Assembly: GCF_000519325.1 (NCBI RefSeq)
Contig: NZ_KI912613.1
Location: 585,836 to 649,835, forward strand
Length of the DNA stretch: 64,000 bases
Reading direction: 5' to 3'
Source of the DNA: Patulibacter minatonensis DSM 18081
GTDB taxonomy: Bacteria; Actinomycetota; Thermoleophilia; Solirubrobacterales; Solirubrobacteraceae
A model generated the notes under the pieces. That model did not search any database. It was not told the origin of the DNA and worked only from the letters and a program-made list of their open reading frames with translations. Made by a program: the position numbers and the translations under genes. Below, piece by piece: positions 28,586 to 52,978 of this stretch (its first letter is position 1; each line of letters opens with the position of its first letter).

Positions 28586-28597
28586 GGAGGGCCGGCG

Positions 28598-28767: not shown

Positions 28768-28812
28768 AGCGTAGTCGGAGGCACGCGGCGGGTCCATCCG
28801 CCAGATGGCTGA
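28768..28812 (-). promoter_or_regulatory. Island palindrome and -10 box for the TrkA/RyR gene
   Basis: 28797-28812 on the plus strand is TCCGCC-AGAT-GGCTGA (one mismatch). Reading leftward, 23 nt later comes TACGCT (complement of 28768-28773), the same spacing as in front of the TIR operon. The promoter would leave a leader of about 180 nt before GTG 28585. The remainder of the 431-bp gap to 29017 holds no convincing gene. Confidence 0.55.
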
Positions 28813-28930
28813 GATGGCCCGCACGGCGCGGTCAGGACCGACGAGGCGGGACTCCTGCGCGACAGGCCCCGGAGACGACGCACGGACGGGTCGGGCACGA
28901 CGGGGGAGATCCCCCACGGACCGCCCCCGA

Positions 28931-28946
28931 TCCGCCGTGCGGCGGA
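28931..28946. promoter_or_regulatory. Island palindrome between TrkA/RyR and LuxR genes
   Basis: TCCGCC-GTGC-GGCGGA, perfect, 70 bp upstream of the luxR-like start and 345 bp upstream of the divergent TrkA/RyR start. No obvious TANNNT lies 23 nt away in either direction. If the LuxR protein binds it, this would be an autoregulatory site. Confidence 0.6.
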
Positions 28947-29016
28947 GGCGCAGGATCCGGTTCGGCCGATGGGTCCGGGAGCCCGGACCGAGGCCACGAC
29001 CAGGAGCCATGACCGC

Positions 29017-29376: not shown

Positions 29377-29457
29377 CGGACCCCACCCGGCCACGGGACC
29401 GCGGTTCGCGAAGCGTCGCGATCGCCGGTCGGGCGCCGGAACGTAGTCTTGCGGCAC

Positions 29458-32909: not shown

Positions 32910-32955
32910 GGCGGACGAGCGCGGCCCGTCGCCGTCACCGCCACGGCTCCGTGTC

Positions 32956-36771: not shown

Positions 36772-37769
36772 GCGCCCACCCAGGGTCCGTCGTACGCGCC
36801 GAGTCCCACGAGCTCCGGCGGTGCCGGGGGCGTGTCCGGGTCGACCGCCCGTGCGGCGATCGGGATCTCGCTCCTGCACCCGATGCAGCGGATCCGGTCG
36901 TCGCGATTGCCGTCCCGTCCGCACCGGGGACAACGCCAGGGGCCTCCGGTCCGCCCCGCTGCGGCCTCGTGGTCGGCCCGGCTCGCGCTCGGCACCGACG
37001 GCACGTCGCCCGTGCCGGGCCCGGAGACGTCCGGGAACTGCCGGCGCCCCTCAGGGGTCAGGGCCCACGTCGCAGCCCCGAGGGGACGGACGACGAGACT
37101 CTCGAACGACCGCGACCCGCCGCCGTCGCGGACCGCCTCGCCCTCGACCACCGGACGCAGGGTGGTCGCGAGCCCGTCCCAACGTCGCCTGCGGGCCGCT
37201 ACGACGGCGTCCATGGCGACCGCCGCGTCCGCTCCTGAGAGGCGCAGGTCGAGACGCAGCTCGCGCCGCGCGCGTCGGGTCTCCAGCACCGTCGTGCACG
37301 AGAGCTCGTCGCCCGATCCCTGGAGCTCGGCGACCGCCTCCAGGAGGACGTGCGCCGCGTAGACGGAGTGCGTCAGGCGGAAGAGCATCGCGCTCGCCAG
37401 GTGCTCATCGATCCGGAACCGGTCACGTCCGACCAGCTTGAGCTTGGGGAGCGTCGCCACCAGGCGTCGGTCGGTCAGCACCAGCCGGCCCTTCGAGCGG
37501 TTCGAGACGCGCGGGAGCCCCGGAGTCGACGCCACCCAGTCCCGGACGCCCTCGGGGCCGTCGAGCCGGCGGACGAAGGTCGAGCACCCCGCGAGCCGCC
37601 AGGACCCGACCACCGTCTCCCCGTCGGCGAGCACGGGCTCCTTGGCGGCGTCGTGCGGCGGATAGGCGGCCGTGTCCGGCCCGTCGTCCGCCTCGTCCGG
37701 ATCCCGGACGTCTCCGAGGAGGAAGTCATCGGCCTCCACCCCGCGAAGGCCCCACCCACCGGTGCTCAT
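36768..37769 (-). CDS. PH/GRAM-like protein with C-terminal zinc ribbon
   Basis: 333 residues. The central part has the bacterial PH/GRAM signature RLVLTDRRLVATLPKL, suggesting a lipid- or protein-binding beta-barrel, followed by a long helical segment. Near the C-terminus CPRCGRDGNRDDRIRCIGC forms a four-cysteine zinc ribbon, and the protein ends with a short Pro-rich tail. No transmembrane helix is evident. Its stop overlaps the STAND start and its start lies 14 bp after the phospholipase stop, so the three are one unit. A membrane-recruiting adaptor for the STAND protein is a reasonable guess, not shown. Confidence 0.6.
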   Translation of the reverse strand: MSTGGWGLRGVEADDFLLGDVRDPDEADDGPDTAAYPPHDAAKEPVLADGETVVGSWRLAGCSTFVRRLDGPEGVRDWVASTPGLPRVSNRSKGRLVLTDRRLVATLPKLKLVGRDRFRIDEHLASAMLFRLTHSVYAAHVLLEAVAELQGSGDELSCTTVLETRRARRELRLDLRLSGADAAVAMDAVVAARRRRWDGLATTLRPVVEGEAVRDGGGSRSFESLVVRPLGAATWALTPEGRRQFPDVSGPGTGDVPSVPSASRADHEAAAGRTGGPWRCPRCGRDGNRDDRIRCIGCRSEIPIAARAVDPDTPPAPPELVGLGAYDGPWVGA

Positions 37770-37783
37770 CCGCCCGTGGCCCG

Positions 37784-38317
37784 CTACTGCTGCTGCCAGT
37801 TGTTGAACCTGCGGACGGCCTTGTACATGACCGTCGCCTCGGCCTTGCAGACCCGCTTCGCGTTGCCCGAGAACATCCGCCCGCAGATCCGGTTCATCTC
37901 GTTCCGGAACTTGACGTCGATCCTGTACCTGCGGTTCTCCGTGCGCTCCAGCATCAGCCCGTTGCCGAAGTTGCGGTAGCCGAAGTCGTGCTGGAGGCAC
38001 GCGTTGCGGAAGCGCTCGCGCAGGTGGTCGGGCGTGGGCGGGCTGCAGCCGTCGTCCGACCAGTCGAACTCGTTGTACGGGGAGGGCTTGTTGCACCCGG
38101 CGGGACCGGTCCAGCAGCCATGGGCGACGAAGTCCGCCTTCCGGGCGGCGAACTGGTCCGCGGTGTAGCCGATGGACTCCTTGCCATAGCGCAGCTGCTC
38201 CTTCGTGAAGGCGTGCGCCGGCGTCGCCGCCGACAGCGTGGCGGCCAGGGCGACCAGCGCCACGACGAGCGCGACGAGGGCTGAACGGTTGCGGAGTCGT
38301 GCGGAGAGCGCGGTCAT
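37784..38317 (-). CDS. Secreted prokaryotic phospholipase A2-like protein
   Basis: 177 residues. A signal peptide (1-36, cleavage at AHA-F) precedes a small domain with FDWSDDGCS and ACLQHDFGYRNFG. The HD pair (His110-Asp111) with paired cysteines (68, 75, 91, 107) matches prokaryotic PLA2 enzymes, which hydrolyse the sn-2 ester of phospholipids using calcium. ATG 38317 gives the clean signal peptide. A perfect island palindrome lies 111 bp upstream. A secreted lipase in front of an intracellular PH/STAND pair is an unusual combination. Confidence 0.85.
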   Translation of the reverse strand: MTALSARLRNRSALVALVVALVALAATLSAATPAHAFTKEQLRYGKESIGYTADQFAARKADFVAHGCWTGPAGCNKPSPYNEFDWSDDGCSPPTPDHLRERFRNACLQHDFGYRNFGNGLMLERTENRRYRIDVKFRNEMNRICGRMFSGNAKRVCKAEATVMYKAVRRFNNWQQQ

Positions 38318-38427
38318 GGTCGGTCCTCGGGAGGGTCGGTGGACGTCGGGCGAGCCGGGCTTCGGAGCACCGTCTCGGTCGATCGCTCCGCCAGCGTCGC
38401 ACCCGCCCGACCGATCCTCCAGCAAGA

Positions 38428-38443
38428 TCCGCCGTCTGGCGGA
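38428..38443. promoter_or_regulatory. Island palindrome upstream of the phospholipase unit
   Basis: TCCGCC-GTCT-GGCGGA, perfect, preceded by GA like three other copies. It lies in the 171-bp gap between the GNAT stop (38489) and the phospholipase start (38317). Reading leftward, a weak -10 (GACGCT) begins 29 nt after it. Confidence 0.65.
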
Positions 38444-38488
38444 GAGCTCTCCGAGGCGCCGGGCACGAGCTCGAAAGACCCGAGGAGG

Positions 38489-39544
38489 TCATCCGCCGGA
38501 CGTCGTCCCCGGCTCCAGTCTCCGGGCGAAGATCCACGCAGAGCAGCGGCAGGGGTGTCCGCAGGCCGGGCAGTCGTACTCGTGCTGTTCGCTGTCCGCA
38601 GTCCAGAAGTCCGGGATCCGGCGGATCTCCGCGAATCCGGTCGCCGACATGGCCCCCGCGATGTGGCACCCACCTTCGGCGGAGTGCCAGCCGAAGGCGA
38701 CGGCGGCGCGGGCGCCCTTCGTGGTCGCCCACTCCATGGCGTGCTCGATGAGGCTCGAGGCCGTCCCGCGTCCGCGGGCCTTCGGGATCACCGCGACGTT
38801 CTTCACCAGCACGGTGTTGCGGACATGCCGCACGCCGGGCAGCCCGTTCACCGCCCGTTCCTGCCCGGCGGGGGCGTGCGTCGAGAGTTCAGAACCCGGG
38901 ATGAGCGCGGCGGTGAGGGCGCCGATGAGCCGGCCGCGCGCGTCGCGCGCGACCAGGCAGATGGTGTCCGGATCGTGCGCCAGGGCGATCACGTCGTCGA
39001 GCGTCACGTAGGCGTCGCCGAGTGCGCTCCCGAGGAGCGCGCACACCGCGTCGGCGTCGTCGCTCGTGGCCCGACGGATGGACTCCGCCATCACGCGGCG
39101 GAACACGTAGCGCCCCTGATCGAGGCCGTTGTCGTGCGAGTCGAACCCGGCCCACATGCCGATGAGATCGCCGGCCGTACCTTTGACGTCGAGGAAGAAG
39201 GTCCCCTGGCCGCGATCGTGTGGATCGGCAGCACCATAGATGCCGTGGATGAAACCGCCGGGCTCCAGCGTGCCGACGAGGCTCCACGACCGCTCTCCGT
39301 CCTCGAGCGTGCTCCCCGTGATCCGCGTCCCGCGCTGTCGCAGCTCGGAGATGCCGTAGTGGCCGCTCACCACCCCGGCCTCGGTGTCGTCGTACAACGT
39401 CCAGTACCGCCCGGTGAGTCGATACCGCTTGTTGAGCCGATGCGCCTGCAACGCCTTGCGCGCACGCGCGGCGCCGCCGCCGATGACCGCGGCGATCCCG
39501 GCGACGCCGAGCGACGTCGCGAGATCCATGTAGGGATCCGCCAC
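38489..39544 (-). CDS. Membrane-anchored beta-barrel/GNAT fusion with C-terminal zinc-binding motif
   Basis: 351 residues. A short N-terminal helix (about 9-25) is followed by a beta-rich module (about 40-150; LTGRYWTLYDD, GHYGISELRQRGTRITG, GTFFLDV) whose G-x-W/Y-x-x-Y and I-x-G spacing recalls small calycin-like barrels, including the Cap15-type receptor of CBASS, though that link is only suggestive. A GNAT acetyltransferase follows (about 153-310) with the acetyl-CoA loop KARGRGTA (255-262). Cys325, 328, 332 and 334 could bind zinc near the end. It begins 51 bp after the upstream operon gene. Possibly a ligand-controlled acetyltransferase at the membrane. Confidence 0.65.
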   Translation of the reverse strand: MADPYMDLATSLGVAGIAAVIGGGAARARKALQAHRLNKRYRLTGRYWTLYDDTEAGVVSGHYGISELRQRGTRITGSTLEDGERSWSLVGTLEPGGFIHGIYGAADPHDRGQGTFFLDVKGTAGDLIGMWAGFDSHDNGLDQGRYVFRRVMAESIRRATSDDADAVCALLGSALGDAYVTLDDVIALAHDPDTICLVARDARGRLIGALTAALIPGSELSTHAPAGQERAVNGLPGVRHVRNTVLVKNVAVIPKARGRGTASSLIEHAMEWATTKGARAAVAFGWHSAEGGCHIAGAMSATGFAEIRRIPDFWTADSEQHEYDCPACGHPCRCSAWIFARRLEPGTTSGG

Positions 39545-39594
39545 GTCGGCTCACCCCCTCCGGACGCCGTCGGAGGACGACGATCCCCATGCCG

Positions 39595-42360
39595 TCATAC
39601 CTCCCACACCGTGCCGCTCGACGCATCGTCGGTCCCGTCGCCATCGGTGGGCGCGCCATGACCCGGCGTCTCCGCAGGGCGATCCACGTCGGCCTCCGGC
39701 CGTGCCACCGCGGCCACCGACGCCAGGGACGCTGCGCCGACGGGGTCCGTGAGCTCGATCCGCTGGACCAGCACGCGGACGGGGTGACGGAACCGCGTGG
39801 TGCCCGCGAGCGCGACCACCGTGCCCCCCGGGGGCGTGACGTCGGGCGGCGGGGGGACGACCTCCCGGACGTCGTTCTCGGAGCCGCGCTGGTCCGCCCA
39901 GTGCCGCGGGAGCATCGAGATGCCGTCGTGGTCGACGAGGATCCGTCCGAGGAACCGGCTGGGGAGCTCCTGGCCGTCGTCGACGAGTCGATCGACGGGG
40001 GTGCGGTCGAGGACGCGGAGCAGCGCGGCCCCGAGACCGCTGTGCTCGACGTCCTGGTCCTTGCCCTCCCGGACCGCCGCCAGCAGGGCCCGGCGCGGCG
40101 AGCTCGGGTCCTCCGAGGTGTCCGCCGCGGGGTCCGGCCGGACGCCGGCGTCGGCTCGCCCCTGCACCTCGACGAGGGCGTCCATCGCGTCGGCCTCGAG
40201 CGCCCCGTAGAGGTCGGAGATCCAGCGGGTGTGGAAGACCTGCTGGCGCGTCTGCTGGGCGAGCTCGCCGATGCGGGCACCGGTCTTCGGGCGGTCCACG
40301 ACCAAGGCCTCGGGGACGGTCTCCAGCCTGATCGCCGCGTCGACCAGCCGGTCCTCCGCGCGGACCTCCGTCCAGGGCCGGTGCACGAGCCAGCCCACGA
40401 TCTCCGCCCAGTCCAGGAACTCCGTGTACCGACGCTCCAGTCGGACCGCGTCCCCCGTCCGCTGAGCGCGCAGGACCGCGGTGTTGATCCCGTCGAGCTC
40501 CCGCTGCAGCTCCTCGGTCGCGTCGCGACGCTCGCGGGCGAAGCGGGACCGGACCAGCAGCAGCACGGACACGACCCAGGCCGCGAGGACCGCGAGGGTG
40601 CCGACCGCGGCGAGGATCGCGCCGGCGACGACCCAGAGCACGACCACGACGACGAGGGCGAGCGCCGACCGCAGGAGGACGCCCTTCAGCAGCGACGGGC
40701 GCTTCGGCCGCGCCGGCGCCGACGCCGCCGGGGCGGCCTTCGGGACGTCGCCCGCGGCCGTCTCGGCCGGGTCCTCCGCGCCGTCGTCGATATCGCCCTC
40801 GGCGCGTGCCCGCGTGAGCTGCTCGGCGATGTGCGCCCCGACGATCCACGTCGGCGTGCGGAGGTAGGGCGTCACCCAGACGTCCGGGTCCACGGTCGGC
40901 GTGTCCTTCGCCCCGGTGCCGGCGGCGTCGTCCGTCGGCGTGGCGTCCGCTCCGCCATCCGCCCCCGCGGGAGCGTCGGCGTCCTCGCCCGTCGCCCCGG
41001 AGACGCCGGCGCCGGTGGTCCCGGTGTCTGCGGGGTCGGCCGCCGGCGCGAAACGCGGGTCCAGTGCCAGGGGGTCGCAGGCGCGGACCTCCCGGTCGCC
41101 GGACCCCGCGGGCGGCAGGGCGCCCGGATGCGGTGCGATCGCGAGCGGGTCCGTGATCACCGCGCGGAGCGCTCCGTGCTGGAGGCGATCCGTGTCGACC
41201 CCCTCGGGCAGATCGGAGCCGTCGACCAGCCCGACGCTGAGCGTCCGCAGATCGCTCCACGCGGCGGCGACCGGACCGTCGGGGACGACGATCGGCCGGC
41301 CGAGCTGGTCGGCCAGGTCGGCGAAGCCCTGCTCGCGGCGCCACGGCCGGATCACGATGTCGGTGTCCGGACCGGCGAGGCGCATGATGCGCTTCGACGC
41401 GGCCTCGTACGCCTTCCGGGCGACGGCCTCCGCCATGTCGACCGGCTTGCGGCGGATCCGCGCCGCGAGCTCCCGTCCGAGCTCCCGGACGGCCTCGCAC
41501 AGGGAGAGCTCCTGCGGCGCGGGCAGGGTCAGGGGCTCGAAGCGGCTGAGCCCCAGGACCTCCGCGTGCTTCTCCAGGTAGCTCCCGACGACGTCGGGCA
41601 CGACCCTGGTGGCGCCGGTCGAGCGATCGAAGCGCGCAGGATCGGGGTTCGGGTAGGGCTCGTCGGTCCGGAACGTCGCCTCGGCGAGGTGCCCCGCCAG
41701 ATCACCCAGGTCGACGATGCGCGTGAACGTCCGCGCCAGCCGGACCGGAGCCGTCATGGCGCCCGACGGTCCGGGGTCGACCGCGTCGAGCGGCGAGACC
41801 GCCCCGGCCGACGCCGAGATCCAGAGGCCCGCGAGCGAGGCGAGCGCGTGCGCCGCGTGCCGGTGGTGCGCGGTGACGTCCTCGGCGAGGTGGTTGACCG
41901 CCAGCGGGTCGGTCCGGTCCTCCGGCGCCACGTAGACGTTCGCGGCGTGCCGCGAACGGAACAGCGATGCGGGCACCGCCGCCGCCACGGCCGGCGGGGC
42001 GACCACCATCGTGCACGCCAGCGGGCGCCTGGCGTCGAACACCAACACGTCCGCGGCCGCTGAGCGGAAGTCCTCCACGAGCTCGGCGAACGCGGCGTCG
42101 AGCGCGGCGTCGGTCGCCGGCGTGAACGCGACGAGCGCCACGTCGGCGGGTGCCACGCCGTCGAGGGCCTCGGCCAGCGTGTCGGTGTTCACCGCACCGT
42201 GCAGGACCGTCGTGACGCCCACGGGCGCCGGATCGTCGCCGGTCGGCCGCTCGAGCGCCGCCCACGCGAAGGGCCGGACCAGACCGGAGTCCGACCACGA
42301 CACGAGGTGCTCGAGGACGGCGTCCCCGTCCGGTGTCCGCGGTGCGAGCAGGATGCGCAT
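39595..42360 (-). CDS. Large membrane protein of the tubulin-like operon
   Basis: 921 residues, not recognised. The N-terminal 500 residues are cytosolic in style (starts MRILLAPRTPDGD; alpha-beta, then helical). A disordered Asp/Ala/Gly/Thr-rich linker (about 440-500) precedes two membrane helices (about 560-605; LLRSALALVVVVVLWVVAG, AVLAAWVVSVLLLV), then a helical and a beta region with VLVQRIEL, and an acidic end. Its ATG directly abuts the TGA of the tubulin-like gene (TGAATG), so the two are co-translated. The likely role is a membrane partner of that GTPase. Confidence 0.7.
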   Translation of the reverse strand: MRILLAPRTPDGDAVLEHLVSWSDSGLVRPFAWAALERPTGDDPAPVGVTTVLHGAVNTDTLAEALDGVAPADVALVAFTPATDAALDAAFAELVEDFRSAAADVLVFDARRPLACTMVVAPPAVAAAVPASLFRSRHAANVYVAPEDRTDPLAVNHLAEDVTAHHRHAAHALASLAGLWISASAGAVSPLDAVDPGPSGAMTAPVRLARTFTRIVDLGDLAGHLAEATFRTDEPYPNPDPARFDRSTGATRVVPDVVGSYLEKHAEVLGLSRFEPLTLPAPQELSLCEAVRELGRELAARIRRKPVDMAEAVARKAYEAASKRIMRLAGPDTDIVIRPWRREQGFADLADQLGRPIVVPDGPVAAAWSDLRTLSVGLVDGSDLPEGVDTDRLQHGALRAVITDPLAIAPHPGALPPAGSGDREVRACDPLALDPRFAPAADPADTGTTGAGVSGATGEDADAPAGADGGADATPTDDAAGTGAKDTPTVDPDVWVTPYLRTPTWIVGAHIAEQLTRARAEGDIDDGAEDPAETAAGDVPKAAPAASAPARPKRPSLLKGVLLRSALALVVVVVLWVVAGAILAAVGTLAVLAAWVVSVLLLVRSRFARERRDATEELQRELDGINTAVLRAQRTGDAVRLERRYTEFLDWAEIVGWLVHRPWTEVRAEDRLVDAAIRLETVPEALVVDRPKTGARIGELAQQTRQQVFHTRWISDLYGALEADAMDALVEVQGRADAGVRPDPAADTSEDPSSPRRALLAAVREGKDQDVEHSGLGAALLRVLDRTPVDRLVDDGQELPSRFLGRILVDHDGISMLPRHWADQRGSENDVREVVPPPPDVTPPGGTVVALAGTTRFRHPVRVLVQRIELTDPVGAASLASVAAVARPEADVDRPAETPGHGAPTDGDGTDDASSGTVWEV

Positions 42361-45300
42361 TCAGACTTCCTCGACGGGCCCCGTCTGCGCGAGCACGTCG
42401 GCATCGTCCGCCCGCCTCAGCGGCTCGCGGACGTCGGTCAGGACCTGGCTCAGGGAGACCTCCAGGAGGTCGCGGATCTCCCACGAGCGGGGGATCGTGA
42501 GCGTCGTGGGGATCGTGACCCGCATCGCGGAGTACTTCGCGTGAGTCGCGGCCCGGATGCGCTCGATCTCCGTCGTCACGGCCGCCAGCCGGGCCTCCGA
42601 GGAGTCGTCGGCCGTGCCGGCCGCCGCGACGGGCGGCACGGGCGGCGCGGGCGCCCCCGGATCGGCGATCTCGAGCGTCCCGTGCTCGATCCAGCGGCGC
42701 AGCGCTCCGTGCGGCACGCCGAGGTCCTGGTCCACCGACCCGAGCTCGATCAGGCGCATGTAGGCCCGCAGCTGCTCGCTCTCGCCGTTCCCGAAGACCA
42801 CCATCGCGAGGGGCAGCGTCTCCAGCAGCGCCGGCAGGACCTGGCCGTGCGCGTTGACCTCCATCGTGCCGCCGAGGGAGTCGTGCTCGACGCCCAGGAG
42901 GTACCGCGGGAACCGCAGCGAGCCGGTCGGCGACCAGACGGCGAGCGGCGACTCGCTCCAGCGGCCGCGGAGGGTCCCGACCTGGCCGAGGACGCGCGCG
43001 ATGAACCAGCCCTTCACCAGCGCCTGCTGCCGGGCGGGCGACAGCGGCACGAACGACGGCAGCGGCCGGGCACGACGGAACGACCAGAACTGCTCGCGCA
43101 TGCCCTTGTCGGTCTGGGCGTTCCAGGCGGCCTGGATCGGCTTCGTCACCGAGTCGATCACGATCGGGTGCACCGCCTGCCCGAGGAACGACATGAGCTC
43201 GACCGAGGACACCGCGGCGTTCGGGTCGAACGCCCGTCGGGCGTCGTCCGCGGTCGCCCCGCCCTGGACCAGCGCGTCGTGCACCGGATCGTGGGCCCGG
43301 TGGCCGTCGGCAACCGGGATCGGGCTGATCAGCAGACTGGCCCCCGGGACCGGGCGTCCGTGCACGGCGTGGAACGCCTCGGCGTTCAGGCTCGCGAGCG
43401 GGGCGCAGGCCTTCGTCGCCTGGCCCATGAGGTCCACGAAGCGCTGGGCCCGGGCCGCCGCGTCGGGATCGTTCGCGTCCAGCCACGCGGGCAGCGTCTG
43501 CCGGACGCGGTCGGACAACGCTCCGCGGCGCTCGGCGACCCAGGACGTCGCGACCCGCAGCACGGCCCGCGGCTCGACCTCGACGCGGAAGAGCGCCGGC
43601 GCCGGCGCGAGTCCCGGCTGCCGGGCCTCGGAGAGCGTCGGGATCCACGGCTGCAGCGTCGAGATGAGGCGCTGGGCGTCGCTCGGGCGGTCGTCGACGC
43701 GGATCGAGTCCCACCCGTTGGTGATGACCTCCTCGAGCGCGGCGGCCTGCGCCGCCTGCGGAGCCGCGCCGTCGAAGATGCCCTGGAGCAGGGCGTCGAG
43801 CTCGCCCGGGAACTCGGCGGCGGGGTAGAGGAGCAGCGTGTTCGGGGCCGGGAGGAGGTGCCGCGCGACGTCGTGGCCCGACCAGGACGCCACGAGCGCG
43901 CTGTCGGCCCGCGCGAGCGTCTGCTCGAGGGCACCCCGCGCGCTCACGAGCGCCTGTCGGAGGCCGGGGAGCACCTCTGCGACGAACCGGCGGATCAGAT
44001 CGGCGGTGCGGTCCTCGTACCGGCCCTCGGCGCGGCGCTGCAACGTCTTGCGGCGGAGCTTCACGTTGTCGGCGACCGCCTGGTGTCCGGCGCCGACGAC
44101 CCGTGCCCGGACGGTGCGCAGGAGCTGGAGGGCGCGCTTCGTCTGGCCGGCCTCGTCGCCCCGCCGGAGCTCGGCGTCGTGCGCGAGCTCGTCCGCCGCC
44201 GCGAGCAGCTGCTCGGAGAGCTCGTCGACCAGCCCGATGGCGGTGGGCAGGCCGTAGAGCCCGACGTACCTCGCGGTCGCCTCCGCCAGTCGCGGCTGGA
44301 TGTCGGTGGCCCACCGCAGGGCGTTCTGCTCGAAGTGGGCGTCGGCGCTCGCGAAGAACGTCGCACCGAACGAGCTGAACGCCACGGTCAGCCGCTCGTT
44401 CCACTCCGCGGGCTTCGCCTCGAGGCGCCCGAGGTCGTCCCGGACCTTCGTGACGACCTCGTCGAGCTCCTTCCCGAGGGTCGGCCCGTGACGCAACGCG
44501 TCGATGATCTGGTTGTCGTCCTTGCCCAGCTCGGCCAGTCCGGCCGCCTCGAAGTAGCTGTCCTTGACCGCCTCGATCCGCTCGGCCAGGAGCGCATCGT
44601 CGCTGCGCCGCTCACGTTGCTCCCGCGAGACGCCCTCCAGGTGGCCCGCGGTCAGGCGGTCGAGGGCCTGCTTCGCCAGGCGCTCGGACGCGTACTGGGC
44701 GAACAGGTCGTTGCCGAGCGACACCGAGGCGAAGCCGATCGAGGACGCGGGGCGCGACGACGCCGCCGGCTCGGCGAGCAGGAAGCTCTCCGCGGTCGTC
44801 GTCCCGCTCTTGTTCGCCTGGAGGTACTTGTCGAACGCCTCCTGCACCGGCCCGACGGTCAGGAGCGCCGCCAGCGCCTGCCCGATCGACCGGTAGACGT
44901 CCCGGGAGTCCGTGAACGTCACGTTCTCGCTCTTCGCGCCGATGAAGAAGTTCGTCACCGCGACCCGCCGGCCCGCGAGCTGACCGACGCCTCCCGCCGC
45001 GCGGTGGGGGGCGGACTCGGTCTGGGAGACCTCGCCCTCGTGGTCGTAGGCGCTCAGCAGCTCCGAGAGTGCCGCGAGACTGTTGGGCTCGGTGCCGACC
45101 TTCATCCCCGCGGGCAGGTGTTCGAAGAGCTCGGCCGTGTAGAGGACCGTGACGAGCTCCTCACGCAGCTGCGTCGCGACGCTCATCCGCTGGATGTGCT
45201 CGAGGACGTCGAGGAACGCGCCCGACCCCGACCCGCCGGCCAGCGACGAGATCACGATGATCTTCGGCTTCGAGACCTGCGTCGCCGACGGCTCCGACCC

Positions 45301-45777
45301 GCCGAGGTGGCTGTTCAGCGACGCGAGCTGCTCGACCGCACCCGGTGCCGTGAGGACGGCGACCTCGCGGGCGATCGCCGCGCCGATCTGCGCGAGCTCG
45401 GTGAGCACGGTGACGCGACCCACGGCGCGCCGCTGCCCGGCGCCGCGGTGCGGGGCCGGGTGGTCGCCGTTCGGGTCCGGCCGCCAGCCGACCATCGCCG
45501 GGAGGTGCTCCTCCGCGCTGAGCAGCCGGCGGTCGTAGTCCCGGTAGTCCAGCTTCGTGTCGCCGAGGCCGAGGTAGTCGATGTCGGCATCGGCGGGCAC
45601 GTCGGCCTCGATGACGTCCGTGGCGTTCGGCAGGTCGACGTGCAGGAAGCGCCACGCCTCGGGCATCCCGTCGTCCCAGCCCGCGGCCTTCAGGCGGCGG
45701 TCGAGCTCGCGCCAGGTGTACCGGAGCGTCTTGCCCCCGGAGCCACCGATGCCGATGAGGATGAACTTGTCCAGCAT
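42361..45777 (-). CDS. Tubulin/FtsZ-like GTPase, large
   Basis: 1138 residues. The N-terminus (MLDKFILIGIGGSGGKTLRY) is a nucleotide-binding loop, and residues 174-191 contain ISSLAGGSGSGAFLDV, the tubulin signature (GGGTGSG type), here AGGSGSG at 180-186. Thus residues 1 to about 400 form a tubulin_2-type GTPase. The rest (about 400-1130) is mostly helical with no recognised domain, much longer than FtsZ. FtsZ-like proteins polymerise with GTP; whether this one does is unknown. It is followed at once by the 921-residue membrane protein and preceded (24-bp gap) by the von Willebrand A protein. Confidence 0.85.
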   Translation of the reverse strand: MLDKFILIGIGGSGGKTLRYTWRELDRRLKAAGWDDGMPEAWRFLHVDLPNATDVIEADVPADADIDYLGLGDTKLDYRDYDRRLLSAEEHLPAMVGWRPDPNGDHPAPHRGAGQRRAVGRVTVLTELAQIGAAIAREVAVLTAPGAVEQLASLNSHLGGSEPSATQVSKPKIIVISSLAGGSGSGAFLDVLEHIQRMSVATQLREELVTVLYTAELFEHLPAGMKVGTEPNSLAALSELLSAYDHEGEVSQTESAPHRAAGGVGQLAGRRVAVTNFFIGAKSENVTFTDSRDVYRSIGQALAALLTVGPVQEAFDKYLQANKSGTTTAESFLLAEPAASSRPASSIGFASVSLGNDLFAQYASERLAKQALDRLTAGHLEGVSREQRERRSDDALLAERIEAVKDSYFEAAGLAELGKDDNQIIDALRHGPTLGKELDEVVTKVRDDLGRLEAKPAEWNERLTVAFSSFGATFFASADAHFEQNALRWATDIQPRLAEATARYVGLYGLPTAIGLVDELSEQLLAAADELAHDAELRRGDEAGQTKRALQLLRTVRARVVGAGHQAVADNVKLRRKTLQRRAEGRYEDRTADLIRRFVAEVLPGLRQALVSARGALEQTLARADSALVASWSGHDVARHLLPAPNTLLLYPAAEFPGELDALLQGIFDGAAPQAAQAAALEEVITNGWDSIRVDDRPSDAQRLISTLQPWIPTLSEARQPGLAPAPALFRVEVEPRAVLRVATSWVAERRGALSDRVRQTLPAWLDANDPDAAARAQRFVDLMGQATKACAPLASLNAEAFHAVHGRPVPGASLLISPIPVADGHRAHDPVHDALVQGGATADDARRAFDPNAAVSSVELMSFLGQAVHPIVIDSVTKPIQAAWNAQTDKGMREQFWSFRRARPLPSFVPLSPARQQALVKGWFIARVLGQVGTLRGRWSESPLAVWSPTGSLRFPRYLLGVEHDSLGGTMEVNAHGQVLPALLETLPLAMVVFGNGESEQLRAYMRLIELGSVDQDLGVPHGALRRWIEHGTLEIADPGAPAPPVPPVAAAGTADDSSEARLAAVTTEIERIRAATHAKYSAMRVTIPTTLTIPRSWEIRDLLEVSLSQVLTDVREPLRRADDADVLAQTGPVEEV

Positions 45778-45801
45778 GTCTCGTCCTTCGTCCTTCGTCG
45801 A

Positions 45802-48800
45802 CTACCAGTTCGAGGAGCTGCCGCCAGGTCCCGACGGCTCCTCGTCGTCGCGGCCCGCGAGGTCGTCGTCCGACCCGGTGTCCACCGATCCGGAGGTCCC
45901 GGACCAGTCGTCGTCGGACCCGGAGCCCGACGATGCGGAGCCCCCCGACGACCCGCCCCACTCGTCGTCGGGTCCGTCGTCCGCGAAGCCGTCCCCGCTC
46001 CCGCCGGCGGCGGACTCGTCGTCCGTCCACGGGACGTCCTGCGGTCCGCCGTCGTCCGACCGCCGGAACCGGGCCTTCAGCCGTGCGAGCGGCGACGGTC
46101 GGTCCGCCTCCGCGCGCTGCGCGTCCAGGACCCCGGAGACCGCGGTCCACGTGTGGGTCCCGAGCGCGCCCTCGGCCGCCGTGACGACGTCCGCGGCCGC
46201 GGTGAGCCCGCCGCCGTCGGCGACGAACAGGACGAGCGTGCCCCGGACCTCGTCCGGTTGCGCGGGACCGTCGCCGTCGTCGCCGTAGGCGGCGGCTGCC
46301 TCCTCGGGCCACCGGATGTCCTCGGGCACGAAGAGCCACGACCCGGCGAGCCCGAGCGGGACCTCGTGCGCGACGCCCCCGCGCAACGGGACGACCTCGC
46401 CGGCTCCGGCGAGTCCGCCGACGATCGGCCGACCGTCGCTCGTCGCGACGCCGTACGGCCCGCTGAAGAGCGTCAGGCGCCGGTCCTCCCGCGAGCCGCT
46501 CGCGACGGCGTGCAGCGCGACGGGACCGACCGACAGCTCGCGCACCGCACGGCTCTGACCGGTGTCGGAGAGCAACCCGAAGGCCTCCCAGTCGCGGCGC
46601 AACGGCCCGCGGTCCGTCGACACGTCGGCCGGCCGGACCACCACGTCGTCGACCACCTGCGCCCGCACCCGCTGGGGCGGCGCGAACCGTGCCGAGAGGA
46701 CGTTCAGGACGTGGAGCAGCAGCAGCGGGATCGCGATCCCGAGGAGGGTGAGCACCGACACGATCGCCCACCGCAGCGCGACCTTGGGCTTCGAGTAGAC
46801 CTCGCCGTCGAGTCGCAGCAGGACGCTGCGCGTCTCCCCGCGCTTGAGGTCGCTCTGCAGCGTGATCGGGAGCGTCGCGTCGACCGAGCCGGTGGCGTCG
46901 TCGTCCTTCGTCGTGATGGTCACCCGGACCGTCCGGCGCTGCCCGCGGCCGACCCGTACGCACCCGGTCCCGGCGTCGGTCGCGACGGTCGGGCGGCCGG
47001 GCCCGGACACGCGGGCGGTCCCGAAGGTCACGCACCCGCCGCCCGACGACGAGCCGGTGATCGTGACCATCGCGCCCGCCGTGTCGGCACCCGCGATCGA
47101 CGGCAGGTGCAGCTCGTCCGGCGTCACCACCGGGAAGCCCTGACCCGGGGGGTCGCGTACCGCGAGCTGGAACGAGCCGGTCTGCTGGGCGACCTGCAGG
47201 TCGCGTCCCGAGAACTCGATCGTCGCCTTGAGGAACAGGCGCGCGGCGGCCGAGCTGCCGGGCAGCGACGTCCGCGCGACGAAGAGGCCGCCGGGCTCGG
47301 GCGTCACGGAGACCGGGGACGTCTCGGAGGACTCCGGGTCGGTCACCTCGGCCGTCATCGTCCCCCCGGTGATGAGGGGACCGCCGGTGACCCGGGTGCC
47401 GTCGCGACGCTGGAGCGCGAGCCGCAGCGTCGTCGGCGCGCCACGGACGATCTCCTTCCGTCCGAGGAGGACCGGCGAGACGTCGGCGAACAGCTGGAGC
47501 GTGGACCGCGGCCGGGTGTCGCCGGCGCCGACCGGGGTGAAGCCGTAGGTCCAGCCCCCGATCCAGTCCTCGGACCTCCGGTCGAAGCGTCCTTCGATCT
47601 CCACCGCGCGGCGGCTCACCCAGCGCTGGGTGATCGTCGCACCGTCGAGGCGCTGGGTCGTCGGCCCGCCGAGGCGCAGGTCGAGGCGGTGGCCCCGCGG
47701 CCCGGTGAGCCGGACCGCGACCCCGTCGGCGCCCGTGACGGCGCGCAGGATGAACCGGTCCATCCCCTGAGCGGCGCGGAACTCGCCGTCGCCCTCGGTC
47801 GGGGCGGTGTCCGCGCCCGCGAGGAGATCGCCGAACTTGAAGAAGAGGTCCTGGCTGCCGTCCGCGCCGAGGTACTGCCCGACCTTCGGGGACCTCCGGT
47901 CGCCGCAGGGCGTGCCCGTGCCGTCGGTCATGCCCTCGAGGAACGAGCGGTCGGCCTGGGACAGCCGGCTGGACAGCGCGACCGTGAAGAGCAGCGTCCC
48001 GAAGGTGCCGTCCGTCGCGTACGCGTCCATGAGGCCCCCGGTGCGTCCGCCGGTGCGGCAGAGGTAGTCCTTGCCCGCGCGGACGGCGGCCTCCACCGTG
48101 ACGTCCCGTCCGTCGCCGGTGACGTCGACGCCGGGCGCGTACGAGAGCTGCGTCGGGAGGCCCTGTGCCCTGGCCTTCCGGCCGTTGCGGTCCCGGATGT
48201 CGAACTCGCCGTCCGTGAAGAAGATGACGGCCTGGCACGGGCGCGCCGCGGTCTCCGCCGCCCCGTCGGCACGAGCGAGGTCGGCCGCGCGGCCCTGGAG
48301 GAACCTGCGGGCGCCGGTGAGCGCCAGTGCGTAGTCGGTGTCCTGTCCGGTGTCGGCGTCGGTGTAGAGCCGGCCCGCGGTCTGCAGGACGCCGTCGAGC
48401 GTGCTCGGGTTCAGGGACCGCCACTGGGCGCCGGCCGCCGACGGGTCCGGAACGACCTTGCCGGAGAACCCCGCGAGCAGCACGTCGACCCTCGGCCGGC
48501 GCCGGTCGCTGCCCGACGGGGTGTCCGCGAGCCGCGAGAGCCCCGCCAGCGTCGCCCGCAGGCCCTCGACGCGCTGGGCGTCCGGGTCGGTCGCGGCGAG
48601 GCTCCCCGACTCGTCCATGAGGACGACGACCGACAGCCGACCGCGGGTCTGCACGCACGTCGCGAGCCGGGACGCCGCCGTGTCGCCCGCGGCAGGCGAC
48701 GCCGGACGTCCGCCGCCCTGGGACGCGGTGCGCGCCGGGACGACGGACGGCATCGCCAGCGCGGCGAGCAGGAAGACGATCGTCGCGGCGACCGCGCGCA

Positions 48801-48810
48801 GCGCCCTCAT
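45802..48810 (-). CDS. Secreted/membrane von Willebrand A domain protein
   Basis: 1002 residues. A signal peptide (1-28) leads to an extracytoplasmic vWA domain with the metal site DESGS (Asp66, Ser68, Ser70) and later FFTDGEFD, so it probably binds a protein ligand through Mg2+. Beta-sandwich domains follow (about 330-740). One membrane helix (about 755-785; LRWAIVSVLTLLGIAIPLLL) puts the last 215 residues in the cytosol, ending in an acidic Ser/Gly/Asp tail. It could relay an outside interaction to the tubulin-like GTPase encoded next. Its ATG overlaps the stop of the upstream small protein (ATGA). Confidence 0.85.
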   Translation of the reverse strand: MRALRAVAATIVFLLAALAMPSVVPARTASQGGGRPASPAAGDTAASRLATCVQTRGRLSVVVLMDESGSLAATDPDAQRVEGLRATLAGLSRLADTPSGSDRRRPRVDVLLAGFSGKVVPDPSAAGAQWRSLNPSTLDGVLQTAGRLYTDADTGQDTDYALALTGARRFLQGRAADLARADGAAETAARPCQAVIFFTDGEFDIRDRNGRKARAQGLPTQLSYAPGVDVTGDGRDVTVEAAVRAGKDYLCRTGGRTGGLMDAYATDGTFGTLLFTVALSSRLSQADRSFLEGMTDGTGTPCGDRRSPKVGQYLGADGSQDLFFKFGDLLAGADTAPTEGDGEFRAAQGMDRFILRAVTGADGVAVRLTGPRGHRLDLRLGGPTTQRLDGATITQRWVSRRAVEIEGRFDRRSEDWIGGWTYGFTPVGAGDTRPRSTLQLFADVSPVLLGRKEIVRGAPTTLRLALQRRDGTRVTGGPLITGGTMTAEVTDPESSETSPVSVTPEPGGLFVARTSLPGSSAAARLFLKATIEFSGRDLQVAQQTGSFQLAVRDPPGQGFPVVTPDELHLPSIAGADTAGAMVTITGSSSGGGCVTFGTARVSGPGRPTVATDAGTGCVRVGRGQRRTVRVTITTKDDDATGSVDATLPITLQSDLKRGETRSVLLRLDGEVYSKPKVALRWAIVSVLTLLGIAIPLLLLHVLNVLSARFAPPQRVRAQVVDDVVVRPADVSTDRGPLRRDWEAFGLLSDTGQSRAVRELSVGPVALHAVASGSREDRRLTLFSGPYGVATSDGRPIVGGLAGAGEVVPLRGGVAHEVPLGLAGSWLFVPEDIRWPEEAAAAYGDDGDGPAQPDEVRGTLVLFVADGGGLTAAADVVTAAEGALGTHTWTAVSGVLDAQRAEADRPSPLARLKARFRRSDDGGPQDVPWTDDESAAGGSGDGFADDGPDDEWGGSSGGSASSGSGSDDDWSGTSGSVDTGSDDDLAGRDDEEPSGPGGSSSNW

Positions 48811-49142
48811 CCGTACACCCGTCCGATCAGGTACGCGTGTCCGCCGGCCTGCAGGACCCCGACGACGATGGCGGCCGTCATCGCCCACCGCACGACGGCG
48901 GGCGTCGCCACGCCCGTGGCGGCGACCCGCCGGACGAGCCAGCGGCGGTACAGGGCGACGAGGACGAGCGCCGCGACGCACCCGATGGCGTACCCGGCGA
49001 GGTTGACGCCGAGTCCGCGGCCGCCCGCGAAGGTCGCCAGTCCGACGAGCAGGCTCAGGACGATCGCGACGGGGAACGCGACGGCGGCGGCGCGCGCGCC
49101 GTCACCGGACGTCGTCGTGATGGGGGCGTCGTCGTCGGTCAT
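48807..49142 (-). CDS. Small membrane protein, three predicted helices
   Basis: 111 residues with hydrophobic segments at about 20-40, 45-65 and 80-105 after an acidic N-terminus (MTDDDAPITTTSGDG). No family recognised. ATG 49142 lies 4 bp after the preceding gene and its stop overlaps the vWA start (ATGA), so it belongs to the operon. It is likely a small membrane subunit. Confidence 0.75.
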   Translation of the reverse strand: MTDDDAPITTTSGDGARAAAVAFPVAIVLSLLVGLATFAGGRGLGVNLAGYAIGCVAALVLVALYRRWLVRRVAATGVATPAVVRWAMTAAIVVGVLQAGGHAYLIGRVYG

Positions 49143-49146
49143 CGGG

Positions 49147-49440
49147 TCACCAGTCGGATCCGGAGGAAGGGCGGTCGCCGAGCGGCTCGGGCTCCGCGCG
49201 GTACCGGTCGGACTCGTCGCCGAAGACCGCGGCGGCATCGATCACGCGGCCGCCCCGGGTGGTGACGGCGACGATGGCCCACCCGAACGGTCCGAGGAAC
49301 GCCCCCCACGCCAGGCCGGTCGCCCACGAGCCGCCACGCGACCGCGCCAGGAGCGCGCCGATCCCGCCGAACACGAGGATCCACACGAGGACGAAGAGCA
49401 GCAGGACCTCGGCGAGGACCCCGAAGACCCCCGCGGTCAC
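49147..49440 (-). CDS. Small membrane protein, two predicted helices
   Basis: 97 residues from GTG 49440, which shares GTGA with the upstream stop. Hydrophobic segments at about 5-28 (FGVLAEVLLLFVLVWILVFG) and 38-58 are joined by a short basic loop; the C-terminus is acidic and polar. This resembles short PLDc_N/phospholipase-N-type membrane anchors, but no motif decides. It belongs to the same operon. Confidence 0.7.
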   Translation of the reverse strand: MTAGVFGVLAEVLLLFVLVWILVFGGIGALLARSRGGSWATGLAWGAFLGPFGWAIVAVTTRGGRVIDAAAVFGDESDRYRAEPEPLGDRPSSGSDW

Positions 49441-50471
49441 CACGACGGCTCCCGTCCCGGGGTGCGCGCCCAGATCACGAGCCCGGCGCCGGCTGCGGCC
49501 AGGAGTCCGGCGGCGAACGTCGCGCCGACCGCAGGGCCGATGTCGAACCCCGCCTCGATGCGGTCGAGGGGCACCGACCCGAAGCTCGAGACGTGCAGGT
49601 CCTTCACGCCGACGCGGCCGACCGACGAGGCGGCGACGATGACGATCGCGGACGCGAGCGACAGGAGCCAGCCGGCTCCCGCCGCGAGCAACGGTCCGGT
49701 CGTCCCTCGGTGGACGAGCGTGAGCACCAGACCACCGACGAGCATCCAGACGGCGAAGAGCGTCGTCGGCCCCAGCCACGGGAGCGCCCAGCCGTCCAGG
49801 CTCCCGTCGCTGCCGACGACGGTCGTCCGCAACCAGGGCTCGTAGCGCAGCACGCTGACCGCGACGCAGGAGACGGTGAGGGCGGCGAGACCCACCGTGA
49901 GGGGCCAGTCGATGCGGCGCCACGCGGGTCCGGCGACGTCTGCCGCTCTCGCGGACCCGTGCCAGGTCGCCGAGAGGGTCTCGAGGATGCGGTCCCAGAG
50001 CCGCCGGCTCCCCACGGCGACCGCGAGCGTCGACGCCCCGAACGCGAGCCAGAGGCCGGCGCCGCCGGTCACGTCGACCGAGCTCCTGCGGATCGTGTCG
50101 GGGAGCAGGCCGTTCGGGATCAGCGCGGCGACGCTCTCCACCAGGAGCAGCGCCAAGCCGCACGCGACCGCCACCAGCCCACCGACGAGGAGCACCACGG
50201 GCGGCTGGCCCGGTCCCCGCCCGTCCCGCTGCGCGACCGCGCCCGCGGCGACGATCACCGCGAGGACGATCACGAACACGGACCACCCGGCGCTGGAACT
50301 CAGCGTGAGGGACCACGAGCGGTCCAGCGCCTTGGCCTGGACCCAGGGAAGGAAGGGACTCGACGCGAGCGCGAGCACCGCGACGCCGAGGACGCACAGG
50401 CGGGCGACCTGTCCACTGCGAGTTGCTGGTCGTTCGGCGGAGAAGTCCGTGACTGAAGGGCTTCCCCACAT
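49437..50471 (-). CDS. Polytopic membrane protein, first gene of the tubulin-like operon
   Basis: 344 residues with about eight membrane helices and short loops; an extracytoplasmic loop contains WALPWLGPTTLF. I do not recognise the family. ATG 50471 follows a -10 box (TAAGCT, complement of 50482-50487) by 10 nt. The upstream palindrome at 50517-50532 makes this the likely first gene of a leftward operon of at least six, possibly seven genes to 38489. Confidence 0.75.
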   Translation of the reverse strand: MWGSPSVTDFSAERPATRSGQVARLCVLGVAVLALASSPFLPWVQAKALDRSWSLTLSSSAGWSVFVIVLAVIVAAGAVAQRDGRGPGQPPVVLLVGGLVAVACGLALLLVESVAALIPNGLLPDTIRRSSVDVTGGAGLWLAFGASTLAVAVGSRRLWDRILETLSATWHGSARAADVAGPAWRRIDWPLTVGLAALTVSCVAVSVLRYEPWLRTTVVGSDGSLDGWALPWLGPTTLFAVWMLVGGLVLTLVHRGTTGPLLAAGAGWLLSLASAIVIVAASSVGRVGVKDLHVSSFGSVPLDRIEAGFDIGPAVGATFAAGLLAAAGAGLVIWARTPGREPSW

Positions 50472-50516
50472 GCGCCGGGCCAGCTTACGGCGCAGGATCG
50501 CGCCCGTCGAGAGAGA

Positions 50517-50532
50517 TCCGCCATCTGGCGGA
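50517..50532. promoter_or_regulatory. Island palindrome at the head of the tubulin-like operon
   Basis: TCCGCC-ATCT-GGCGGA, perfect, again preceded by GA. Leftward, TAAGCT (complement of 50482-50487) begins 29 nt after it and is 10 nt before the ATG. It is the rightmost copy found; nothing similar was noticed from 50.6 to 64 kb. Confidence 0.68.
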
Positions 50533-50642
50533 GGGGCCTTGCCGCCAAGGTCGTTCCGAGACGGATCCGGTCGCCTCGGATCGTCGTGGGCGCAGCCCAG
50601 GACGTGCCCCGGCGCCGAGGCCGACATCCGCCGCCGGAGCCG

Positions 50643-51836
50643 TCACCGCACCCCGCGCCGCACCGCCGTCGGCCTCGCGACCCCCAGCCGCTCGGCCAAC
50701 TCCCACGCCGCGGCCCGGCCCGCGCGGTTGGCGCCGACGGTCGACTGCGAGGGCCCATAGCCGATCAGGTGGACCCGCGGCTCGTCCGCGACCCGGGTGC
50801 CGCGCAGCTCGATGCCGCCCCGGTCGTTGCGCAGGTGGAGCGGGTCGAGGTGGGCGATGTGGGGCTTGAAGCCCGTGGCCCAGAGGAGCACGTCGACCGG
50901 GGTGTGCGAGCCGTCGGGCTCGCGGACGCCGTCCGGCTCGACGGCGACGAACATGGGACGTCGGTGCAGGACGCCGCGCTCGCGGGCGGCCCGCACGTAG
51001 GGCGTCTCGATCAGGCCGGTGTAGGAGACGACGCTGCCGGTCGGGTTGCCGGCCTCGACGTCCGCCGTCACCCGCTCGATGACCATCCGGCCCTCGACCT
51101 CGGCCCGGAACTCGCCGTCGAGGAAGACCGGCTCCCGCCGCGTGTACCAGAGCACCGTGGACTTCCGGGAGAGCTCCTCGAGCAGCTGGAGCGCCGAGAT
51201 GCCGCCGCCGACGATCGCCACCCGCTGCCCGGCGAACGCGTCGGCGCGCACGTAGTCGCGGGTGTGCAGCTGCCGCCCGCGGAAGGTCCGCTGTCCGGGG
51301 TAGGCGGGCAGGACCGGGGTGTTCCAGGTGCCGGTGGCGTTGATGATCGCCCGGGTCCGCAGGCGCCCGTCGGCGGTCGCGACGAGGAGGTCGCCGTCGG
51401 GGTCCTCGTCGGCGCGGGTGACCTCCGTGACCGTCACGGGGCGGCGGATCGGCAGGTCCTCCGCGCGCTCGAACGCGGCGAAGTACTCCGGCACGGCGAC
51501 CCTGCTGGGAGCGTCCGGGTCGATCGGCGGCTTCGGGAACCGCGGCAGGTCGAAGATGCCGTTGACGGTGCGCATCGTCAGCGACGCCCACCGGTGCCGC
51601 CACGCGCCGCCCGGAGCGTCCTCGGCGTCCAGGACGACGAAGGTCGGGGCCGCCGTGGTGGATTCCGCGGCCGCTGCACCCGGTGCCGCGGCCATCGACG
51701 ACCCGGCGTCGGAGGCCGCGACGTCCGCGAACCCCCGGCGACGCAGGTGGTACGCCGCGGACAGGCCGGCCTGCCCCCCGCCGATGACGACGACGGTCGC
51801 GTGTCCGTCGCCCGGGTTCCCCGTCGCGCCGCTCAT
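50643..51836 (-). CDS. FAD/NADPH-binding flavin monooxygenase
   Basis: 397 residues. A FAD Rossmann motif VVIGGGQAGLSAAYHLRRRG begins near residue 16, and a second nucleotide motif VAIVGGGISALQLL lies near residue 195; ATGTWNTP and LLWATGF are typical of YhhA/CzcO-like flavin monooxygenases acting on small amines, sulphides or metals. A 25-residue Ala/Ser/Thr-rich insert interrupts the first beta-alpha-beta unit (about 42-66), which is unusual. ATG 51836. The substrate is unknown. It ends near the island edge and is divergent from the glutathione-transferase gene. Confidence 0.82.
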   Translation of the reverse strand: MSGATGNPGDGHATVVVIGGGQAGLSAAYHLRRRGFADVAASDAGSSMAAAPGAAAAESTTAAPTFVVLDAEDAPGGAWRHRWASLTMRTVNGIFDLPRFPKPPIDPDAPSRVAVPEYFAAFERAEDLPIRRPVTVTEVTRADEDPDGDLLVATADGRLRTRAIINATGTWNTPVLPAYPGQRTFRGRQLHTRDYVRADAFAGQRVAIVGGGISALQLLEELSRKSTVLWYTRREPVFLDGEFRAEVEGRMVIERVTADVEAGNPTGSVVSYTGLIETPYVRAARERGVLHRRPMFVAVEPDGVREPDGSHTPVDVLLWATGFKPHIAHLDPLHLRNDRGGIELRGTRVADEPRVHLIGYGPSQSTVGANRAGRAAAWELAERLGVARPTAVRRGVR

Positions 51837-51933
51837 GCACCGAGTGTCGCGCGTCGCGGCCGGGACCCCGTCACGGGGCGGGGATCCGGCGACCGCAGGG
51901 ACCCCGACGACGGCCTGTTCTAGGGTCGTGGGC

Positions 51934-52530
51934 GTGCGCCTCTACCACCTGCCCGGTTCCCGATCGACGCGCGCCCTCTGGACGCTCGAGGAGATCGGCG
52001 CGCCCTACGAGCTCGCGCTGCTGCCCGGCGACGAGCGTCGCGGCGAGGAGCACCTCCGACGGCACCCGCTGGGTCGGGTCCCGGTGCTCGAGCTCGACGA
52101 CGGCCGCCACGTCTTCGAGTCGGGCGCCATCTGCCTCCACCTCGCCGACCTGCACCCCGACGCCGGGCTGCTCGGTCCGGTCGGCTCGACCGAGCGGGCG
52201 CTGGTCTACCAATGGGCGTTCTTCGCGTTCTCCGAGCTCGAGGGCACCGTCTTCCCGTGGATGCGGGCCAAGCGGGCCGGCCAGGACCTCGACGCCCTGG
52301 CCGAGCGCTTCACGCCGGTCGCGGCCGCGCTCCGGGCGACGCTCTCCGAGGGCCCCTGGCTGCTCGGCGACCGCTTCACGGTGGCCGACGTGCTGTGCAG
52401 CGGCCCGCTCGGCGCCGCCTTCCGTCGCGGCCTGATCGACGAGGACGGCCCGCTGCGCGACTACCTCGACCGCGCGGCGGCCCGGCCGGCGAACGTCCGG
52501 GCGGAGGCCGTGCGGGTCCCGGGACCCTGA
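51934..52530 (+). CDS. Glutathione S-transferase-like protein
   Basis: 198 residues. The thioredoxin-like N-terminal half (VRLYHLPGSRSTRALWTLEE, LGRVPVLELDDG, FESGAICLHLAD) has the cis-Pro and glutathione-site Glu-Ser; the C-terminal half is helical with FTVADVL. Ser in GSRS takes the position of the catalytic Tyr/Ser. GTG 51934 lies 7 nt after a -10 box (TAGGGT, 51921-51926), a leaderless arrangement. Actinobacteria use mycothiol, so the thiol cofactor is uncertain. Confidence 0.85.
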   Translation: MRLYHLPGSRSTRALWTLEEIGAPYELALLPGDERRGEEHLRRHPLGRVPVLELDDGRHVFESGAICLHLADLHPDAGLLGPVGSTERALVYQWAFFAFSELEGTVFPWMRAKRAGQDLDALAERFTPVAAALRATLSEGPWLLGDRFTVADVLCSGPLGAAFRRGLIDEDGPLRDYLDRAAARPANVRAEAVRVPGP

Positions 52531-52601
52531 CGACGGCGCGCGTGCCCGGCGGCCGCGCGCCGGGGCCGGACGCACCGCGCGCCCCGGCTACCCTTCCGCG
52601 G

Positions 52602-52922
52602 ATGACGTCCTCCGAGGTCGGCCCCTGCGAGCTGGAGGTCGGCACCGAGGTCCTCCGCCTGCACTCCCGCGTGATCGACGCGTTCTCGTCGCGCTCGGAC
52701 TGGTCGATGCGGATCCACGTCGACCACGTCGTGTTCGCCGCCCGGGCACCCGACCGCAAGGGGCGCGTCCAGGTGCGCATGGGGCGGCTGGACGAGAAGG
52801 GCGAGATGCGCCTGGGCTCCGAGCGGCTGAAGCTCGACCTCGATCCGCAGGAGTGGGAGCGCTTCGAGGCCTTCGTCGCCGTGGTGAAGCGCGTGCAGGC
52901 GGCGGGACCCGAGCCCTGGTGA
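52602..52922 (+). CDS. Conserved-looking small protein
   Basis: 106 residues, no signal peptide or membrane helix. The pattern of short strands (CELEVGTEVLRLHSRVIDAF, SMRIHVDHVVFAARA, KGRVQVRMGRL) and a final helix looks like a small PH-like domain. ATG 52602 follows a -10 box (TACCCT, 52589-52594) by 7 nt. Function unknown. Confidence 0.7.
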   Translation: MTSSEVGPCELEVGTEVLRLHSRVIDAFSSRSDWSMRIHVDHVVFAARAPDRKGRVQVRMGRLDEKGEMRLGSERLKLDLDPQEWERFEAFVAVVKRVQAAGPEPW

Positions 52923-52930
52923 GGCGGACG

Positions 52931-52964
52931 CGGCGCGGCGGTGCCCCCGGGCACGCGCGCGCCG
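52931..52964. terminator. Hairpin between convergent genes
   Basis: GTGCCC-CC-GGGCAC (52941-52954) is a perfect inner stem, extended by partly complementary GC arms on both sides. It lies between gene ends at 52922 and 52979. Confidence 0.5.
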
Positions 52965-52978
52965 CGACCGGCCGCCGG

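Follow-up and report, generated by a model that had tools for sequence, protein, structure and literature searches.

An accessory operon of Patulibacter minatonensis pairs a predicted tubulin-fold GTPase with a transmembrane von Willebrand factor A protein

Results

We analysed a stretch of 64,000 nucleotides from the genome of Patulibacter minatonensis DSM 18081 (contig NZ_KI912613.1, positions 585,836 to 649,835; hereafter the window, whose own numbering is used throughout). On the minus strand, from 50471 to 39595, it carries six almost abutting genes, A to F, in which a von Willebrand factor A (vWA) gene adjoins a gene for a tubulin-superfamily GTPase. We propose, at a probability of roughly 45%, that this operon is an accessory FtsZl1 (Tubulin_2)/vWA module free of GAP1 and DO-GTPase, which spans the envelope and signals binding outside the cell to a GTPase that assembles at the membrane. 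Computation established the gene set and its conservation, the topology of the vWA protein, the tubulin fold of the GTPase and the accessory distribution. The operon is of a type already known, as it belongs to a family described in 2010 and 2020, in its actinobacterial FtsZl1 form; the new points are a clade lacking GAP1 and DO-GTPase, a probably interrupted tubulin fold and an empty site in congeners.

The central pair consists of the vWA gene D (45802..48810, minus strand, as are all six genes; 1002 aa), whose product has a signal peptide and one transmembrane (TM) helix in its C-terminal half, and gene E (42361..45777; 1138 aa), which encodes the Tubulin_2 (FtsZl1) protein. Gene F (39595..42360; 921 aa) follows, with an alpha/beta N-terminal domain, two TM segments, and helical and C-terminal parts. 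Three membrane protein genes precede D: A (49437..50471; 344 aa, about eight TM segments predicted by the Kyte-Doolittle scale, as for the other products), B (49147..49440; 97 aa, GTG start, one or two TM segments) and C (48807..49142; 111 aa, three TM segments). Hydrophobic segments thus mark five of the six products as membrane proteins. An earlier sequence-only reading of this DNA had described a six-gene set with overlapping or nearly touching starts and stops, made up of a large Tubulin_2 GTPase, a vWA protein and four membrane proteins. Pfam and hydrophobicity agree with this inventory, and the junctions agree with the layout: a GTGA overlap between A and B, a 4-nt gap between B and C, an ATGA overlap between C and D, a 24-nt gap between D and E, and abutting TGA and ATG codons between E and F. 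Promoter and terminator scans found none, a null result that is expected at this G+C content and is therefore uninformative.

A scan of 84,980 species genomes yielded 80 loci, and gene order was counted in those with enough flanking sequence. In all 65 countable loci D is the gene immediately upstream of E (median gap 32 nt), and in 68 of 69 F immediately follows E (median gap 2 nt), the single miss being due to a second, split tubulin-like gene in one locus (L073). The vWA-tubulin-F core is therefore invariant, and the neighbourhood survey proposed with the sequence-only reading finds the set staying together. In 51 of 65 loci the gene immediately before D is a C homologue, with a median C-D gap of 9 nt, and several of the others have an unrecognised small TM gene in that place. 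Homologues of B were found in two loci (L043 and L077), and a homologue of A only in L043 (genome G682), at the same place; the gene order of this locus is that of the window from A to F.

E is supported as a tubulin-superfamily GTPase because of its Pfam match, its invariant nucleotide-loop glycines and its predicted fold, as had been claimed for the gene beside the vWA protein. It matches Pfam Tubulin_2 (PF13809) at E=5.1e-36, with 125.1 bits against a cut-off of 27. The GTPase domain covers aa 6-372 (44662..45762) and contains the T1 motif GIGGSGG, the motif GAGQxRAVGR and the T4 motif AGGSGSG. Across 70 E sequences, the T1 glycines (G9, G11, G12 and G14) and T4 glycines (G181, G182 and G184) are invariant, as are D48, D190 and the family motif GAGQxRAxGR. 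A PAxNE-like motif near residues 643-647 is a candidate for the catalytic T7 loop; the window protein has Thr647 there, where 63 of the 70 homologues have Glu.

The AlphaFold2 model of E, built on the 70 homologues, has a mean predicted local distance difference test score (pLDDT) of 86.7 and a predicted template modelling score (pTM) of 0.83. Foldseek against the PDB placed CetZ2 first (4.5e-5), then FtsZ, TubZ and tubulin. In VIA-align comparisons the model scored Z 23.9 against CetZ2 (309 of 334 residues, model range 3-896) and Z 20.2 against FtsZ (274 of 306 residues, range 2-870); against tubulins Z was about 20-22, with a range extending to about 999. Sequence identity to CetZ, FtsZ, TubZ and tubulin is 12-16%, and a profile search of the PDB with E returned no tubulin or FtsZ, its matches being chance helical bundles. 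Since the GTPase domain stops near residue 380 and long helices follow it (456-508, 510-554, 566-601 and 603-622), the C-terminal half of the FtsZ/CetZ fold must come after these helices. The model thus suggests that the tubulin fold of E is complete, its two halves separated by a helical insert of about 300 residues (approximately aa 385-690, 43708..44625), with the second half probably at about aa 691-900 (43078..43707), as judged from the aligned ranges.

D contains a vWA domain at approximately aa 60-205 (48196..48633), with a metal ion-dependent adhesion site (MIDAS) formed by D66-S68-S70, T158 and D200. By itself D matches Pfam VWA_2 weakly (0.017); a mycobacterial homologue matches the same family at 3.7e-4, and the profile of the D family matches solved vWA chains at 1.9e-6, including those of the TRAP adhesin and the type IV pilus protein PilB. 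Among 37 D homologues, D66, S70, T158 and D200 are invariant and S68 is at least 90% conserved. The single TM helix is predicted at aa 683-701 (46708..46764) and is followed by a cytosolic region of about 300 residues (aa 702-1002, 45805..46707). In nearly all D homologues with a recognised TM helix there are 4-18 cysteines before it, mostly 6 or 8, and 0-2 after it. Even counts outside and hardly any cysteines inside fit an extracytoplasmic ectodomain bearing disulphides.

Signal peptides, this contrast in cysteines and the conserved MIDAS together support a topology in which the vWA ectodomain of D would lie outside the cell and one helix would lead to a cytosolic part, in line with the earlier proposal of an external vWA domain linked to the cytosol by a single helix. 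The same proposal had the helix end in a cytosolic acidic tail with a special role. The last ~100 aa of D are indeed acidic here, yet they are the end of a much larger cytosolic region, and the tails of most homologues are not acidic, so neither the special role nor a conserved contact between the acidic tail and the GTPase is supported.

The family comprises two subfamilies. In mycobacterial, corynebacterial, nocardial and some other loci, genes for GAP1-N2/GAP1-M and mostly DO-GTPase2 lie 3' of F. In a tree of E the GAP1-bearing loci fall on one side of a branch (37 rows, Shimodaira-Hasegawa-like approximate likelihood ratio test (SH-aLRT) 94), and the window locus falls outside, nearest to L043, although the tree was made quickly and has long branches, which leaves the exact position of the window unsure. 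The grouping is not purely taxonomic, as Pseudoclavibacter (Microbacteriaceae) is on the GAP1 side and other Microbacteriaceae are not. The window locus belongs to the subfamily without GAP1: neither GAP1-N2 nor DO-GTPase2 (PF19993; TRAFAC) is present at the locus, and neither was found across the genome, which is 95.5% complete. The idea that the two partners are encoded away from the locus is rejected, as the genome-wide search found no copy. GAP1 was also not found in three near relatives (G682, G658 and G755), and a mycobacterium-like genome (G772) gave a match as positive control.

The operon is carried as accessory DNA. A search for Tubulin_2 found matches in 2 of the 201 genomes sampled from the order, in 4 of 399 from the class and in 17 of 396 from the phylum; none of the six congeners sampled had one. 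The second match in the order (G154) may be contamination, because it lies on a small contig of 3.6 kb with mycobacterium-like sequence. In the window the operon sits on a 30.5-kb segment (22500..52965) that is absent at the same site from two congeners: the flanks ending at 22,499 and beginning at 52,966 are contiguous in one (G033, 0 bases between) and nearly so in the other (G181, about 18). This empty site is intergenic, between the 3' ends of the genes at 21219-22496 and 52979-55042. Insertion here would be a simpler reading than loss of the 30.5-kb segment from the other congeners. No attachment site, flanking repeats or tRNA was found at the segment ends.

The remaining products gave fewer leads: A, B, C and F match no family in Pfam, NCBIfam or PADLOC convincingly. 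The model of F is of moderate quality (pLDDT 73, pTM 0.69); its N-terminal domain is alpha/beta, and aa 568-607 (40540..40659) form a TM hairpin. Foldseek with this model returned nothing under E 0.1; the highest Z from VIA was 7.4, and Ras-like entries scored about 6 across residues 1-195. We considered F as a degenerate second tubulin that might form a heterodimer with E, by analogy with firmicute loci that encode two tubulins. F matched the E profile with a probability of 0.1%, and the third genes of other loci, which are tubulin-like and carry TM segments, with a probability of 1.0%; neither a second tubulin nor a link to those genes is supported, although a missing match is no disproof.

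Two tubulin-like genes stand side by side in other lineages of the actinobacterial phylum (L026, L032, L034, L039 and L040), where the third gene, which comes after Tubulin_2, begins like a tubulin gene (GLGxFG) and has TM segments; in L026 and L032 it matches Tubulin_2 weakly. In L073 (3217-6538), the second tubulin-like gene is split over two overlapping frames just 5' of an intact C-D-E-F set.

Several neighbours of the operon were also recorded. A GNAT acetyltransferase gene (38489-39544) lies on the same strand, 50 nt 3' of F, and is possibly co-transcribed. Further downstream of the operon, 37784-38317 encodes a secreted prokaryotic phospholipase A2 (PF09056, E=8.8e-19). The gene at 32956-36771, on the same segment, encodes a protein of 1271 aa that combines DUF4062 with an AAA/STAND-like ATPase domain, and its start overlaps the stop of the gene at 36768-37739. 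Divergent from it is a set at 29017-32909 (a LuxR-type regulator, a HATPase-like protein and then a 365-aa gene), and 26115-28280 encodes a membrane protein that joins TrkA_N and RyR domains, an unusual pairing.

Discussion

In the envelope-spanning module that we favour, D would use the metal site of its vWA ectodomain to bind a ligand or a surface on the outer side of the membrane. D, C and F, here with A and B, may contact one another to form a membrane complex, whose state would reach cytosolic E, presumably from outside to inside, by way of D's TM helix and cytosolic region. E would then bind GTP and assemble at the membrane, an assembly that GTP may drive, and its helical insert may reach to the partners. 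We base this proposal on the core order, kept with near-zero gaps, on the conserved MIDAS and ectodomain cysteines of D, and on the tubulin fold and invariant phosphate loops of E; its accessory character follows from the rarity of Tubulin_2 in the order and the empty site in two congeners. We also count the linkage of the related subfamily to GAP1 and DO-GTPase as support. A transmembrane machine that joins an outside binding event to a GTP-driven filament or switch had been suggested from the letters of the DNA; the external vWA domain, the TM helix, the adjacent GTPase and the constant gene set are in keeping with that suggestion, and the role it gave to the acidic tail has to be dropped. 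A more specific version is rather improbable: in it, the assembly state of a split tubulin would depend on ligand binding by the external vWA domain, and a helical arm of about 300 residues would extend from this tubulin to the membrane complex.

Some points weigh against the signalling proposal. A, B, C and F could be assigned to no known family or fold, no experimental study of any FtsZl1/vWA family member was found in the literature searched, and the activity of this E could differ from that of its homologues, given its Thr647.

The family was first described as FtsZl1/vWA neighbourhoods, in which genes for Tubulin_2 and vWA proteins are accompanied by lineage-specific membrane protein genes and the actinobacterial forms make a separate clade (Makarova & Koonin 2010, PMC2875224). 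The window operon resembles them in its N-terminal Tubulin_2 GTPase domain, helical/coiled-coil middle region, adjacent vWA gene with intact MIDAS, several TM proteins and accessory spread. Kinase, OmpA-like or P-loop GTPase neighbours are frequent, though not universal, in those operons (PMC2875224), whereas none is found among the six genes here. The 2010 study did not identify T6-H7 or the C-terminal tubulin domain of FtsZl1 and left the capacity to form filaments open; by comparison, the matches of the E model to CetZ, FtsZ and tubulin reach residues 870-999. E resembles these proteins and TubZ in its predicted fold, and differs from them in its length and low identity and in the helical insert that would separate its halves. 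D likewise resembles vWA adhesins and sensors such as TRAP and the type IV pilus PilB adhesin in its vWA domain, MIDAS residues and likely extracellular placement; unlike them, it appears to be linked by its TM helix to a partner encoded by a tubulin-type gene.

In actinobacteria, the genes for the tubulin and for the membrane vWA protein have also been described as one theme, the tubulin theme, of GAP1-N2/DO-GTPase systems, which are read as conflict systems (Kaur et al. 2020, PMC7159879). The likeness to this theme extends to a single actinobacterial tubulin with a helical region and a membrane vWA protein with a beta-rich domain, and C, D, E and F of the GAP1-bearing loci are homologous to the window genes. 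The operon may be a system of defence or self/non-self recognition, whose tubulin-like effector would multimerize on sensing an invader or foreign cell, as Kaur et al. propose for GAP1-N2 systems; the window locus would then represent a form in which the GAP1/DO-GTPase switch was lost or had never been present. Besides the sister subfamily with GAP1 and mostly DO-GTPase, the patchy distribution, the island location and the DUF4062-AAA protein nearby are consistent with such a role. We nevertheless consider it unlikely: GAP1-N2 and DO-GTPase2 are missing from locus and genome alike, no toxin or nuclease domain was recognised among the six genes, and no PADLOC model matches them beyond one weak match for B.

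The 2010 authors themselves proposed membrane remodelling or vesicle formation, in which GTP-dependent filaments of E would bend the membrane and the vWA protein would anchor to the wall (PMC2875224). The tubulin fold of E, which now looks complete in the model, and the prevalence of membrane proteins among the products suit this published idea. Against it, no membrane-bending domain was recognised, the accessory distribution speaks against a basic, ancient housekeeping role in the lineage, and the reviewers of that paper preferred signalling or transport; we find remodelling doubtful.

E may alternatively be a switch or scaffold that does not polymerize, its large insert blocking longitudinal contacts, so that D and E would act as a filament-free pair of receptor and GTPase. 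The Thr647 of the window protein, at a position where Glu is nearly invariant, would fit, but the nucleotide loops are invariant and established tubulin and FtsZ relatives polymerize, which makes a purely non-filamentous E hard to favour. A known defence system is not supported, as PADLOC gave no match of weight.

For the envelope-spanning signalling module, the model of E bears on the question left open in 2010: with the C-terminal half apparently present, filaments are conceivable, and the model points out residues for mutagenesis. The core set has homologues in Mycobacterium, Corynebacterium, Microbacterium and others, including some laboratory-tractable hosts, and the subfamilies with and without GAP1 offer a natural comparison for the role of the GAP1 switch. 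If the more specific version with a split tubulin is true, bacteria would have a tubulin-based transmembrane signalling machine, in which a membrane receptor drives a tubulin-class polymer.

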